NCBI RefSeq assembly: GCF_000585395.1
Contig: NZ_KK073875.1
Span: 2,666,017-2,730,016, forward strand
Direction: 5' to 3'
Origin: Saccharibacillus sacchari DSM 19268
Lineage (GTDB): Bacteria; Bacillota; Bacilli; Paenibacillales; Paenibacillaceae
Length of the DNA stretch: 64,000 nucleotides
This document shows positions 25,601 to 30,437 of the stretch, one piece after another; within the stretch, counting starts at the first letter, position 1, and every line of letters starts with the position of its first letter. A program made the position numbers and the translations under genes. The notes beneath the pieces were generated by a model. The model did no database searches. It had not been told where the DNA came from and saw only the letters and a program-made list of their open reading frames with translations.

Positions 25601-25625
25601 ATAACCAATCTTCAAGATTTCCGTC
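25601..25625 (+). promoter_or_regulatory. ECF-type promoter of the sigma operon
   Basis: ATAACC (25601-25606), 15 bases, then CGTC (25622-25625, within CCGTCTG), about 40 bases before the sigma gene. The same pair with the same spacing precedes the SLH gene. It fits an autoregulated ECF promoter (AACC-like -35, CGTC -10). Confidence 0.7.
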
Positions 25626-25667
25626 TGTAATCATGAAGGGAACGCAATCCCGGAAAGGAGCCTCACA

Positions 25668-26255
25668 TTGAACAGTCCATCCAGCTCAACGAGCGAATCG
25701 CAAGACGAGAAAATCATCGATCTATTCTGGAACCGCAGCGAATCGGCGATCAGCGAGGCCGCGAGCGAATACGGTCGTTACTGTTATTCCATTTCCTATC
25801 ATATTCTGCGCAGCACGGAGGACGCCGAAGAATGCGTCAACGATACGTGGCTGCGCACCTGGAACGCTATTCCGCCGCAGCGTCCCGGCAAGTTGTCGTT
25901 TTTCGTTGGTCGCATCGTGCGCAATCTGTCGCTCGATAAATTCCGCAGCAAAAAAGCCAAACGGCGCGGCGGCGAAATGTCGCCTATTCTCGAAGAATTG
26001 AGCGAAGCGATTCCCGGCGGACCGGATACGGAAAGTCTGGTGCTGGATCGGGAACTCGGACGCGCGATTAACGACTTTTTGCGTACATTGCCCGAGAACG
26101 CCTGCAATCTCTTTTTGGCCCGCTACTGGCATAGCATGCCGCTGACGGAAATCGCGTCGAAGTTCGGCGTGAAGGAGAACAATATCAAAGCCAGCCTGTT
26201 TCGCACTCGGGGCAAACTGAAAGAGTATCTGGAGAAAGAAGGGATGCAGCCGTGA
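25668..26255 (+). CDS. ECF RNA polymerase sigma factor
   Basis: A 195-residue extracytoplasmic-function sigma factor. Region 2 spans about 25-95 (STEDAEECVNDTWLRTWNAIPP, then LSFFVGRIVRNLSLDKFRS for -10 recognition). Region 4 spans about 130-190 (LPENACNLFLARYWHSMPLTEIASKFGVKENNIKAS, the -35 helix-turn-helix). The TTG at 25668 is supported by GGAAAGGAG 7 bases upstream. It overlaps the next gene by 4 bases (GTGA). It is probably held inactive by that membrane protein and drives its own promoter and that of the SLH gene. Confidence 0.92.
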   Translation: MNSPSSSTSESQDEKIIDLFWNRSESAISEAASEYGRYCYSISYHILRSTEDAEECVNDTWLRTWNAIPPQRPGKLSFFVGRIVRNLSLDKFRSKKAKRRGGEMSPILEELSEAIPGGPDTESLVLDRELGRAINDFLRTLPENACNLFLARYWHSMPLTEIASKFGVKENNIKASLFRTRGKLKEYLEKEGMQP

Positions 26256-26923
26256 ACAATGAAGAACGATTGTACCGGGCGATTGGCGAAGCTGACGATG
26301 AGCTGTTGGAGAGAATGGAGCAAGCGATGGCGGCAGGCAAGGCGAGTCATTCCGATCTAAAAAAACGACGGCGGATCTGGCAAGCGAGCGTAGCATCGCT
26401 GCTTGTAGCGGCGGCCGCATTGCTGCTCATTTTCAACGACAGCTTGTTCAACCGCGATGGTAATGTGACCTATACGGCATCCGGGCCGGTCGTCGACCGG
26501 GCAATCGGAAATGAGCCTTCAAGCAGTGTGGTTACTCCGGGCAACGGTCAAATCGTATATTTCGATTCGGTTCGTCGCGCATTCGAGACGAACAAGGATT
26601 CCAGAACGAAGTATTTTGTCGCAATCGATCTGTTCGCGGACGACATGCCGCTTAATGTAGGCAGCTTCGATACGCATCGCGAGTTGAAGCGGCTTCAAGA
26701 GCTGGGATTGCAGGTGGGTTATGCCGAGTCGTGGACGTATCAAGGCGAAGGCGTACAGGTTGATTATTTGTATGCAGCAGGCCTATTAACGGCGGAGCAG
26801 CTGAAGAACTTCCCGGCTTCGTCCGAATACGGCTACGCGTTCCGCTTCGCGACCAACGCTGACGGAACTCCCGTACCGACAGAGAACTTTGTTGAATCCG
26901 GTTCCCAAACGAAAATGAAATAA
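26252..26923 (+). CDS. Membrane anti-sigma factor with an extracellular domain shared with the SLH protein
   Basis: A 223-residue single-pass protein, assigned as anti-sigma by position and topology. Residues 1-40 form a cytoplasmic helical segment (ERLYRAIGEADDELLERMEQ), 42-61 a membrane helix, 62-97 a linker and 98-208 an extracellular domain. The domain aligns without gaps to residues 250-360 of the neighbouring SLH protein, with 51 of 111 positions identical by my count. Shared blocks are ELKRLQ, WTYQG, TAEQL and YGYAF. The GTG start overlaps the sigma stop (GTGA). No zinc-binding HxxxCxxC motif is present, so it is not a ZAS-type anti-sigma. Confidence 0.82.
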   Translation: MNNEERLYRAIGEADDELLERMEQAMAAGKASHSDLKKRRRIWQASVASLLVAAAALLLIFNDSLFNRDGNVTYTASGPVVDRAIGNEPSSSVVTPGNGQIVYFDSVRRAFETNKDSRTKYFVAIDLFADDMPLNVGSFDTHRELKRLQELGLQVGYAESWTYQGEGVQVDYLYAAGLLTAEQLKNFPASSEYGYAFRFATNADGTPVPTENFVESGSQTKMK

Positions 26924-26938
26924 AATGTTGTCGCCAGA

Positions 26939-26963
26939 ATAACCGAAGCGGAAAATCTCCGTC
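26939..26963 (+). promoter_or_regulatory. ECF-type promoter of the SLH gene
   Basis: ATAACC (26939-26944), 15 bases, CGTC (26960-26963, within CCGTCTT), starting 16 bases after the anti-sigma stop. Same elements and spacing as at 25601-25625. It predicts that the sigma factor transcribes the SLH gene directly. Confidence 0.7.
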
Positions 26964-27020
26964 TTGTAGGGCAGAACGTCAAAAACAAACCCATTCAACC
27001 CCTTCAAGGAGGAACTTCCC

Positions 27021-28157
27021 ATGCATAAAAAAATCGCAACGACTGTCCTGTCCGCTTCTCTGCTCGCCGCTTCCTTAGGCGGTGCCGCTTCGGCCGCGTC
27101 CGCTACGAACTTCCGCGATCTGCAAAACGTAACGGGCCACGACAAGATTCTCGCGCTGCATGACAAAAAAATCGTCAGCGGCGTGAGCAAAACGGCCTTT
27201 GCGCCGCAGTCGAAATTAACGCAAGCCGAAGCGCTCCAGCTTATCGTCAACGGGTTTAAACTGGACGAGAAACCTTTGACGGATGCGTTGATCGCGCTGA
27301 ATACTCTTTTCCCGGCTGTCAAAGAAGATGCTTGGTACGCCAACGCGTTCAGTTATGCGTACTACAACGGCGTCGATATCCCGAAGTCGGTCAGTCCGTC
27401 GGCAACGATCACCCGGGAGCAATATATCGATTACGTGATGACGGGTCTTCAAGCTGTAGGAAATATGCCGGCTATCGACGTAGTTGCTCAAGAGATCGCG
27501 GACGGCGACAAGCTCAATCCGGCATACCTGGATTCCGTACAGTTGGCGATCGTATTCGGCATTGCGGAACTGGATTCCGAGCGTAACTTCAATCCGACTC
27601 ACGAGATTACACGAGCGGAAGCAGCCGTGATCTTATACAATGCGGTGGAGTTTTTGGAGAAAAGTTCTTCGAATCAAGTGAACTCGAATGATGAACGCAT
27701 CATCGACGTGCTGCCGCATGAACAACCGACCACGGCTCCGGCAGCCGGTCTTTATGCAGCTCCGGAGAACGGCAAGTTCTTCTCGACAGGCAGCGTGCAG
27801 CAGGCGATTGACGAACAGGCCGCTCCAAGCACGAAGGTACAGGTCGCGGTAACGCTGTTCGAGAACGGATCACCGATCGATGAACAAAGCGCCAAAGGCG
27901 CCGCAGAGCTGAAGCGTCTCCAGTTACTCGGCTACGATATCGATTATGCCCAAGCCTGGACGTATCAAGGCAATCTGGAGAAGGTGGAATACACGTATAT
28001 TTCCGGCGTGTTCACGGCAGAGCAGCTTGAATCGTTCCAAGCCTCTGCAAACTACGGTTATGCTTTCGACTTTGCCTCAAACGGTGACGGATCGGCAGTA
28101 TTGGGTAAAAACGATGCCGTAACAGGTACGAAAAGCCCGCGTCTGATTGCGGAATAA
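27021..28157 (+). CDS. Secreted SLH-domain protein with anti-sigma-like C-terminal domain
   Basis: A 378-residue exported protein. Signal peptide 1-26 (cleavage near ASA-A). Three degenerate SLH repeats follow (about 30-80, 97-145, 163-213), which in other proteins bind pyruvylated secondary cell-wall polysaccharide and so fix the protein to the wall. A linker (214-248) leads to a 111-residue domain (250-360) homologous to the extracellular domain of the upstream anti-sigma protein. The ATG at 27021 has AAGGAGG upstream. The two proteins would place the same domain in the wall and at the membrane; ligand capture or dimer exchange with the anti-sigma protein is my inference. Confidence 0.88.
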   Translation: MHKKIATTVLSASLLAASLGGAASAASATNFRDLQNVTGHDKILALHDKKIVSGVSKTAFAPQSKLTQAEALQLIVNGFKLDEKPLTDALIALNTLFPAVKEDAWYANAFSYAYYNGVDIPKSVSPSATITREQYIDYVMTGLQAVGNMPAIDVVAQEIADGDKLNPAYLDSVQLAIVFGIAELDSERNFNPTHEITRAEAAVILYNAVEFLEKSSSNQVNSNDERIIDVLPHEQPTTAPAAGLYAAPENGKFFSTGSVQQAIDEQAAPSTKVQVAVTLFENGSPIDEQSAKGAAELKRLQLLGYDIDYAQAWTYQGNLEKVEYTYISGVFTAEQLESFQASANYGYAFDFASNGDGSAVLGKNDAVTGTKSPRLIAE

Positions 28158-28308: not shown

Positions 28309-29694
28309 TCAAGCCGGAAACTGCACGGTAAACGTCGTCTTTTCGCCGACCGTGCTTTTCGCCGAGATCCGTCCTTTATTTTGTTCCACAATGGAGCGCG
28401 CGATCGCAAGTCCCAGCCCGTGTCCGCCCTGTGAGCGGGTACGCGACTGGTCGGTACGATAAAAGCGGTCGAATACGCGCGGCAGATGCTCGGCGGGAAT
28501 GCCTTCGCCCGTGTTGCTCACCGTTAGCACGACCTCGCCGTGTTCCTGCTTCAGCGACACGTCGATCCGGCCTTGCGCATTCGCGTATTTAATCGCGTTG
28601 TCCAGCAGGATCATCGTGACCTGCACGATCTGCTCGCGGCTTCCCGTAATGCTGAGCGCGGGTTCGATTTCGTAGTCGAGCGTCAGATCCTTTTCGAAAA
28701 CAACGGCTTCCATCGTCAGCATGACGTTCTCCACCGCATCGCTCAGATCGAAACGAGCCTGGATCATATTCGAGCGGGAGTCGTCCATTTCGGTTAGATA
28801 AAGCAAGTCGCCTGTCAGCTTCGCCATGCGTTCCGTCTCGGATTTAATATAACGAAGCCATTTTTCCTGACTGCGGATCGTCTCGTCCCGGTTCGCCAGC
28901 AGCACGTCCGCGTTGGTGTTAATGACCGCGAGCGGCGTTTTCAACTCGTGCGAGGCGTCTCCGATGAACTGCTTCTGCTTCTCGAACGCTTCGCGTACCG
29001 GCTGAATCGAGCGGTTGGCGAAGAATCGGCTGAAGAAGAACAGGACGACCAGCATCGCCAGCCCTACGGCGAGGAACGCGTAGACCAGCGTCGTCAAAAT
29101 CTCTTCGCGGGACGTCGTGTCGATAAATACGTACATCGTTCCGTCTTCCGTCTGCATCTTTTGGAACGTCCAACGGCTGTTGCTGAGCGTGAAGCCGCCG
29201 CTGTCTTTGCCGTCGGCTACCGCCTGCGCAAGCGCTTGGGCGTAATCGTCTTCCGTCATGCTGAAGCGGGATTCCGTATCGATCAGCGTACCCGAAGCGT
29301 CGGTCAGCAGCATGAACGAGACCGACCGTTCCGGCGCATTGTTTCCGCCGAAGCCGTTCATCGGGGGCTCGCCCATATCGAAGCTGCCGTTTTGCGAGCT
29401 TGAACCGCTGCCGCCCGTATTTCCGCTTCCGTTTGCCGTATCCGGGATCGCACCTTTTTGACCGGAACCGCCGCCCGGCATCTCGCCGTTTAATCCGCTG
29501 CGGTACATATTCGTCGTGCGCTCCAGATCCATGCCGATCTCGTCGTGCACCTGTCGGTACGTGATCGTGTAGATCGTGGCGAAGGCGACCAGCATGATGA
29601 TGACGATCGTGACCAGATTGACGATGAGGAATCGGTTGCGCAGCTTTTTGAACAGGGGGTTCATCGGCATGTTTTTCATATTCAAGCCGCCCAT
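28309..29694 (-). CDS. Sensor histidine kinase of the surface-regulon two-component system
   Basis: A 461-residue kinase. Two membrane helices (about 20-45 and 203-226) bracket an extracellular domain that starts with a Gly/Ser/Asn-rich stretch (about 70-125) and continues as a small PAS-like part (FMLLTDASGTLIDTE). The H-box is DASHELKTPLAV, followed by N box LLDNAIKYA, G1 NTGEGIP, F box VFDRFYR and G2 GHGLGLAIARS. The ATG overlaps the regulator stop (TAATG). Its Gly/Met/Pro-rich linker recalls the low-complexity parts of the beta-helix proteins it may control. The signal is unknown. Confidence 0.9.
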   Translation of the reverse strand: MGGLNMKNMPMNPLFKKLRNRFLIVNLVTIVIIMLVAFATIYTITYRQVHDEIGMDLERTTNMYRSGLNGEMPGGGSGQKGAIPDTANGSGNTGGSGSSSQNGSFDMGEPPMNGFGGNNAPERSVSFMLLTDASGTLIDTESRFSMTEDDYAQALAQAVADGKDSGGFTLSNSRWTFQKMQTEDGTMYVFIDTTSREEILTTLVYAFLAVGLAMLVVLFFFSRFFANRSIQPVREAFEKQKQFIGDASHELKTPLAVINTNADVLLANRDETIRSQEKWLRYIKSETERMAKLTGDLLYLTEMDDSRSNMIQARFDLSDAVENVMLTMEAVVFEKDLTLDYEIEPALSITGSREQIVQVTMILLDNAIKYANAQGRIDVSLKQEHGEVVLTVSNTGEGIPAEHLPRVFDRFYRTDQSRTRSQGGHGLGLAIARSIVEQNKGRISAKSTVGEKTTFTVQFPA

Positions 29695-30374
29695 TACGCT
29701 TTGCCCTCCTCCAGTACATAGCCGACGCCCCGGATCGTGGTGATGCGCGTTTCCGAGCCGAGGAAGTTCAATTTTTTACGCAAAAACGAGATATAGACCT
29801 CCACGTTGTTATGCTCCGCTTCCGAGTCGAACCCCCACAGCTTTTCGATGATTTGTTCCTTCGACGTCACCGCCTGTTTGCGCACGATCAGCAGCTCAAG
29901 CAGTTCGCTTTCTTTCGGATTCAGCTTGATTTCTTTGCCGCGTACCGTCAGCTTCGGATTGGTTGCGTTCAACTCCAAATCGCCGAACTTAAGCGCGTCT
30001 TCCGGCATGACCTCGCCTTTTCTGCGCATCGCGGCCCGGATTCTTGCCAGCAGTTCGTCTGAGGAAAAAGGTTTCGCCACGTAATCGTCCGCTCCGTGAT
30101 CCAGCCCCGCGATTTTGTCCGGGATCTCGCCTTTGGCTGTCAGCAAGATGACCGGGACGGCCATGCCTTTGCTCCGTACGTTTTTCAAAATGCTGATGCC
30201 GTCCATGCCCGGAAGCATGATATCGAGCAGCAGCAGGTCGTAAATATCGCTGAGCGCGTAATCCAAGCCGTCTTCGCCGTCGTGCACGACATCGACCGAA
30301 TAATTGTTCTTTTTCAAAATTTGAGACAGGGCTTCCGCCAGATGCAGCTCGTCTTCCACGATTAGGATTCGCAT
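29694..30374 (-). CDS. OmpR-family response regulator (PmrA/QseB-like)
   Basis: A 226-residue regulator. The receiver starts MRILIVEDELHLAEAL, with the phospho-acceptor Asp in LLLLDIMLPGMDG and the switch Lys in ADDYVAKPFS. The winged helix spans about 130-225 and ends TTIRGVGYVLEEG. I chose ATG 30374, with GAGGGTG upstream; a GTG four codons earlier is too close to the site. Its promoter carries a YTTAAG-N5-YTAAAG direct repeat, which also precedes the VTC operon and the second beta-helix gene. This resembles the PmrA box of proteobacteria, so it is the best candidate to bind all three. Confidence 0.9.
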   Translation of the reverse strand: MRILIVEDELHLAEALSQILKKNNYSVDVVHDGEDGLDYALSDIYDLLLLDIMLPGMDGISILKNVRSKGMAVPVILLTAKGEIPDKIAGLDHGADDYVAKPFSSDELLARIRAAMRRKGEVMPEDALKFGDLELNATNPKLTVRGKEIKLNPKESELLELLIVRKQAVTSKEQIIEKLWGFDSEAEHNNVEVYISFLRKKLNFLGSETRITTIRGVGYVLEEGKA

Positions 30375-30437
30375 GTCTATATTCACCCTCTGTTTAATTT
30401 TCGTTTGAATGGAGGCTTTCGTTTATCGATTGTCTTC

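Follow-up and report, generated by a model that had tools for sequence, protein, structure and literature searches.

A Saccharibacillus locus for an extracytoplasmic function sigma factor in which a candidate anti-sigma factor and a wall-anchored SLH protein share one extracellular domain

Described sigma/anti-sigma systems and the Saccharibacillus sacchari locus

In the SigI/RsgI systems of Clostridium thermocellum, the closest precedent for the locus described here, the type of extracellular module carried by the anti-sigma factor recurs in proteins that are secreted under the same regulon. RsgI6, for example, ends in a GH10 module, and SigI6 recognises the promoters of GH10 xylanase genes (xyn10Z, xyn10Y and xyn10D) as well as its own promoter (PubMed Central [PMC] article PMC4711584). 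Here we describe a locus of Saccharibacillus sacchari DSM 19268 that shows a comparable recurrence. It lies in a window of 64,000 nucleotides, by which we mean the whole stretch of DNA analysed (contig NZ_KK073875.1, positions 2,666,017 to 2,730,016; the genome, G000, is a single contig of 6.08 Mb). Three co-directional genes encode an extracytoplasmic function (ECF) sigma factor, a membrane protein that is its candidate anti-sigma factor and, after a gap of 97 bp, a secreted SLH protein, and the last two proteins carry copies of one extracellular domain.

The SigI/RsgI systems differ from this locus in their separate type of sigma factor, their many targets, which are mostly dockerin enzymes, and their polysaccharide ligands. 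The system here has an ordinary ECF sigma factor, one small domain, a single detected target besides itself, and anchoring in the wall through SLH repeats. Pfam finds no RsgI domain in the candidate anti-sigma factor, and both Pfam and NCBIfam assign the sigma factor to the ECF factors, so the locus does not belong to SigI/RsgI; the likeness, judged by promoter type, would lie in the way of working.

SigV/RsiV of Bacillus subtilis and SigP/RsiP of B. thuringiensis likewise pair an ECF sigma factor with an anti-sigma factor (a candidate one in our case). RsiV binds lysozyme, and RsiV and RsiP undergo stepwise proteolysis, a response to an external signal that is described for those systems; the text available from these papers mentions no wall-anchored paralogue of either ectodomain (PMC4183432, PMC5014341, PMC8844934). 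Within Saccharibacillus itself, DUF4179-type systems (G001, G005, G012 and G014) also combine an ECF sigma factor with a membrane anti-sigma factor and have the sigma gene beside an SLH gene, but there the anti-sigma factor carries DUF4179 in place of the shared domain. We know of no wall-anchored ectodomain paralogue for SigV/RsiV or SigP/RsiP. The group ECF264, of which S. sacchari is a representative, is tabulated among ECF factors without an anti-sigma factor in PMC8999054.

The initial annotation of this DNA had named the locus as its first candidate for an undescribed system. Searches of the open-licence PMC library brought up no title that concerns such a grouping of ECF sigma factor, anti-sigma factor and SLH protein; module sharing as such is known from RsgI6 and the xylanases of SigI6. 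New features are that the sigma factor is of ECF type, that the domain has no name, that one copy is anchored in the wall, and that the output detected consists of the circuit itself and a copy of its sensor. The association is real, and the later analysis ties it together better than the first look at the letters had done, adding a shared promoter type, co-occurrence and a probably old duplication to the shared domain. We tentatively propose, with a probability of roughly 0.45, a three-gene ECF circuit that includes its own wall-anchored sensor copy, which would capture the sensed ligand and so give feedback.

The shared domain and its distribution

The proteins and domains discussed below are encoded in the window as follows.

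25668..26255, + strand: ECF sigma factor, 195 amino acids, TTG start (Pfam Sigma70_r2 and Sigma70_r4_2)
26252..26923, + strand: membrane anti-sigma candidate, 223 amino acids, GTG start, overlapping the sigma gene by 4 nucleotides (gene order and topology)
26372..26452, + strand: single transmembrane segment of the anti-sigma candidate, residues 41-67 (hydropathy)
26471..26494, + strand: juxtamembrane stalk motif YTASGPVV of the anti-sigma candidate, residues 74-81, a possible cleavage zone
26537..26875, + strand: shared extracellular domain, anti-sigma copy, residues 96-208 (BLASTP, alignment, AlphaFold2)
27021..28157, + strand: secreted SLH protein, 378 amino acids, with a C-terminal copy of the anti-sigma ectodomain
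27105..27722, + strand: SLH (wall-anchoring) part, homologous to short SLH proteins found throughout the genus
27762..28100, + strand: shared extracellular domain, SLH-protein copy, residues 248-360 (BLASTP, alignment, AlphaFold2)

Residues 98-208 of the anti-sigma candidate and 250-360 of the SLH protein align without a gap, and a recount of the identities gave 51 of 111, exactly the figure of the initial annotation. BLASTP widens the match to 54 identities in 125 positions (103 bits, E 1e-30), and the local alignment of the two copies scores 260, whereas the best of 1000 residue shuffles reaches 57. AlphaFold2 models of both copies, built on five-row alignments, have the same order of elements (strand-helix-strand-helix-strand-strand-helix-strand), with an extra short, low-confidence strand ahead of the domain in one of them. 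Mean predicted local distance difference test (pLDDT) values are 69.7 and 66.0, and most ten-residue blocks of the domain reach at least 70. The domain has no Pfam match above cut-off and no relative in the viral_contigs search, and in the plasmid search the matches among the 20 of 25 records listed are confined to the SLH part.

The placement of the sigma gene is supported by Pfam hits to Sigma70_r2 (43.8 bits) and Sigma70_r4_2 (35 bits), which make up a two-domain protein with regions 2 and 4 only. For the membrane protein, neither Pfam nor NCBIfam gives a family above cut-off, so it matches no curated anti-sigma family; its position after the sigma gene and its topology make it a candidate anti-sigma factor that may inhibit the sigma factor. 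Three Pfam SLH stretches (E up to 10) agree with the three repeats first reported for the wall protein, whose signal peptide was identified by eye; its five relatives show one or two SLH stretches each at a stricter limit (E 0.05). Pfam recognises no domain other than SLH in this protein. The relative in G010 (L004 321-1394), at 357 amino acids, has a shorter SLH region and keeps the C-terminal domain. Compared with the S. endophyticus locus (L013), the sigma factor is 93%, the anti-sigma candidate 85% and the SLH protein 95% identical.

All six anti-sigma proteins of the genus have one transmembrane-like segment by hydropathy, and five of the six carry the stalk motif YTASGxV, which none of the six SLH proteins has. 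This distribution would fit a cleavage region present in the sensor only, and it bears on the idea that what the wall copy lures is not a ligand but the protease acting on the ectodomain of the anti-sigma factor. The idea draws on the PCSK9 prodomain, a subtilisin-propeptide-like domain, which for the SLH copy is the top Foldseek match (E 0.096, probability 0.57). We consider such a protease decoy very improbable: that E-value is not significant, PII-like proteins score about alike, and the stalk motif, where cleavage would be expected, is missing from all six SLH copies. The weak Foldseek matches, PII-like proteins and the PCSK9 prodomain among them, are not used here as evidence.

With the anti-sigma protein as query (E 0.001), six of the 16 Saccharibacillus genomes are found to encode the domain exactly twice, once in the anti-sigma candidate and once in the SLH protein, and the remaining ten do not encode it. 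A domain profile (E 0.01) returns the same six among 295 genomes of the family, and the sigma factor (E 1e-15 or better, weaker relatives uncounted) occurs in these six as well, with no partial set in any of the 16 genomes at the cut-offs used. Five of the six carriers have the three genes side by side; in G014 the SLH gene sits on a separate contig. Profile and sequence searches thus agree that the domain recurs as a sigma/anti-sigma/SLH set, a recurrence for which the initial annotation had proposed to look. On an rpoB tree the carriers are scattered over the two main clades of the genus, which needs four gains or losses, at least three of them forced by well-supported branches. A perfect 6/10 match would arise by chance once in 8008, by an arithmetic that ignores relatedness, and because five of the sets are linked, so that most of the co-loss could reflect single deletions, we give the co-occurrence moderate weight.

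Beyond the genus the domain is rare. The profile finds it in 3 of 398 genomes of the phylum, in 5 of 397 in the family of G686 (a Lachnospiraceae metagenome-assembled genome) and in 2 of 391 in its class, and a single-sequence search finds it in 3 of 250 in that family; a trigger factor in G384 (L027) and RpoC in G698 (L031) were dropped by eye as false positives. The initial annotation had named a generic module without a link to ECF operons as the outcome that would speak against it. The rarity of the domain (6/295 genomes in the family of S. sacchari, 5/397 in that of G686) rules out an abundant module, and in four of the six outside carriers (G686, G909, G986 and G816) it forms the C-terminus of a membrane protein encoded directly 3' of a Pfam-confirmed ECF sigma gene. 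G1041 has a fragment close to a contig end, and in G1216, from the class of G686, the domain makes up a lone lipoprotein of 158 amino acids (L149 4110-4586, by eye). Gene context points to a domain that is chiefly the sensor of ECF anti-sigma factors, its pairing with SLH being seen only in Saccharibacillus. In a Lachnospiraceae metagenome-assembled genome (L014 1704-3913 and 3922-5336) the ECF/domain pair directly follows what by eye looks like a regulator/M56-peptidase pair of BlaI/BlaR-like kind.

Promoters, detected regulon and origin of the SLH copy

Two promoters of one type, which the initial annotation had not noted, were located in the window.

25601..25626, + strand: ECF-type promoter ATAACC-N15-CGTCT ahead of the sigma gene (kept in 6/6 carriers; 0 in 2000 dinucleotide shuffles)
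26939..26964, + strand: ECF-type promoter ATAACC-N15-CGTCT ahead of the SLH gene (5/5 linked loci; absent in G014)

This motif, which we take to be an ECF-type promoter, precedes the sigma gene in all six carriers and the SLH gene in all five linked loci, and when the 240 bases upstream of each gene are shuffled 2000 times by dinucleotide, it turns up 0 or 1 times. The sigma operon therefore has a predicted autoregulatory promoter of ECF type that is conserved in every carrier. Exact matches across the six carrier genomes number 27, comprising 11 system promoters and 16 other sites; the site background is similar in the ten genomes without the system, as these hold 25. When a same-strand start codon, a ribosome-binding site and at least 60 open codons were required within 200 bp, 10 of the 11 system sites passed and none of the other 16, so a larger regulon under the exact motif was rejected. 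In a coarse list of open reading frames for 14 sites, those of L133, L136 and L138 lie close to where an overlapping frame on the same strand begins, and a scan of the window allowing one mismatch added no site. Judged by the exact motif, the detected regulon is made up of the sigma operon together with the gene for the SLH protein, and looser sites may exist.

The spacing of the promoter sets the linked SLH genes apart. We compared 31 SLH genes, namely those of 79 matches for which locus sequence was at hand, and AACC-N15-CGTC stands ahead of exactly the five linked, domain-bearing ones, where base shuffles predict 0.12 genes. Among the remaining 26, 18 have AACC-N16-CGTC, the unlinked G014 gene included, so SLH proteins seem to be common ECF targets in the genus. 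These spacings suggest that the linked domain-bearing genes bear the N15 promoter of this sigma factor and that an ECF sigma factor of different spacing controls the genes of short SLH-only proteins. For these short secreted SLH-only proteins, the N16 form was seen ahead of 17 of the 25 genes compared (L043, L046, L047, L054, L055, L075 and others).

The promoters also bear on an explanation without feedback on the anti-sigma factor, in which the two proteins merely share a binding module, the SLH protein serving in the wall as an effector, protective or adhesive, for the same target. The common promoter type of the sigma and SLH genes, the example of RsgI6 and the xylanases of its sigma factor, and the ECF-type promoters on 18 of 26 other SLH genes, which make SLH proteins look like common ECF outputs, would all suit it. 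We regard it as rather doubtful, since the only visible activity of the SLH protein is binding through the domain, and that alone would buffer the ligand.

In domain trees the SLH copies split from the Saccharibacillus anti-sigma copies in 88% of 200 bootstraps. As the two kinds of copy separate, the duplication is probably old and the copies were retained as a pair; this tree, weak as the branch is, lends no support to a recent origin of the copies genome by genome, whether through duplication or through gene conversion. For the domain of the SLH protein, the ratio of nonsynonymous to synonymous substitution rates (dN/dS) is 0.12 between G000 and G006 and 0.16 between G009 and G010. In the anti-sigma domain (window 26531-26920), the synonymous rate (dS) between G000 and G006 (L003) is unusually low, at 0.094, while the remainder of the gene has 0.61; either recombination or a constraint acting on the DNA itself may lie behind this.

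Short secreted SLH proteins that lack the domain form a family to which the SLH part belongs, and all 16 genomes of the genus have matches to it. When a tree is built from this part, the five linked proteins group as a single clade, whereas that of G014 is placed as sister (94/89) to eight short proteins; domain presence mapped on the tree requires two changes. A similar short-chain oxidoreductase gene lies near all four loci of the G014-protein group that were read (G014, G001, G000 and G006, by eye), so the G014 gene is probably at the older place. An ECF sigma gene related to the DUF4179-linked one of G014 adjoins the SLH gene in G014, G001, G005 and G012, and for G014 and G001 it was confirmed that a DUF4179 protein follows. 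These neighbourhoods are L068 8388-10026 (G014), L074 3194-4799 (G001), L046 (G012) and L047 (G005).

It might be argued that a duplicated ectodomain joined an SLH gene by chance and was kept without any functional tie to the anti-sigma factor, given the adjacency in five of six genomes, the eroded SLH part in G010, the different promoter in G014 and the abundance of domain-free SLH proteins. We give this little credence. The pair is retained in both main clades, the dN/dS values of the domain are 0.12-0.16, co-occurrence holds even where the genes are unlinked (G014), and among the 31 genes compared the N15 spacing is restricted to the fused, linked ones.

Downstream of the SLH gene, and convergent to it, the window contains a sensor kinase/response regulator pair (28309-30386, minus strand), which does not adjoin the three-gene set in G007, G009 or G010 (by eye).

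A sensor copy in the wall as a possible ligand trap

To these observations the proposed circuit would add several steps: action of the candidate as an anti-sigma factor, binding of a ligand, cleavage, capture of the ligand by the wall copy, and feedback that is negative. The anti-sigma candidate would hold the ECF sigma factor at the membrane, and its small alpha/beta ectodomain would sense an extracellular ligand. On sensing, the anti-sigma factor would be inactivated, probably through cleavage of the stalk, and the freed sigma factor would activate two promoters of one type, that of its own operon and that of the SLH gene. The SLH protein would then place the same ectodomain in the wall, where it would most likely capture or shield the ligand before this reaches the membrane copy, so that the cell is protected and the system goes off again. 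With SLH as its only other recognised domain, the activity that can be seen for this protein is anchoring of the shared domain to the wall; should the two copies have a ligand in common, that in the wall must compete for it.

The initial annotation suggested a wall-integrity sensor, in which the SLH copy competes with or binds the anti-sigma copy, or buffers a common ligand. Taken as direct binding, the wall copy would act as a homotypic tether of the anti-sigma copy, and loss of contact, through wall damage or detachment, would free the sigma factor. One domain is indeed present twice, in membrane and in wall, and duplicated domains often retain self-interaction. Such a tether seems unlikely to us, because clostridial carriers have a single copy, so that the domain is useful without one in the wall, and because expression of the SLH protein from the sigma factor's own promoter type suits feedback better than a tether in the resting state. 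On-demand expression, together with the sensors that elsewhere lack a wall copy, somewhat favours ligand capture.

Several points weigh against capture in the wall. Adjacency alone could explain co-loss in the five linked carriers. The G014 SLH gene has AACC-N16-CGTC instead of the N15 form and, as it is unlinked and a DUF4179-type ECF operon is adjacent, cognate control is unsupported there. In G010 the SLH anchor is eroded to one Pfam stretch, and the branch of the domain tree that splits the two kinds of copy is weakly supported (50/92). The single system site that fails the ribosome-binding-site test is that of the sigma gene of G007, and the exact-motif search is blind to looser promoters, the genome-wide scan being exact only. 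For the fold, Foldseek gives no solved structure at E <=0.001 for either copy, and a PDB sequence search with the domain gives nothing significant (best E 0.32). The four outside genomes with an ECF-linked domain hold one copy each and no SLH gene was seen beside it; in G1216 no ECF sigma gene was found within the 9 kb covered. Occurrence as a single copy without an SLH partner in clostridial genomes implies that the sensor works without a wall copy.

Ligand capture by the wall copy nevertheless remains our preferred explanation. More guardedly still, we suggest a single-output ECF circuit, in which the sigma factor would make only itself and a wall decoy that intercepts the inducer, the decoy layer being present only during the threat. 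If true, this would be a minimal bacterial circuit that reuses the ligand-binding domain of its sensor as a wall decoy under the control of that sensor, and it would offer a simple model for how an envelope alarm is ended in Gram-positive cells. As the domain is small and present twice, it offers a direct route to the ligand, and the analysis defines an as yet unnamed extracellular domain of ECF anti-sigma factors that is common to Saccharibacillus and Clostridia.

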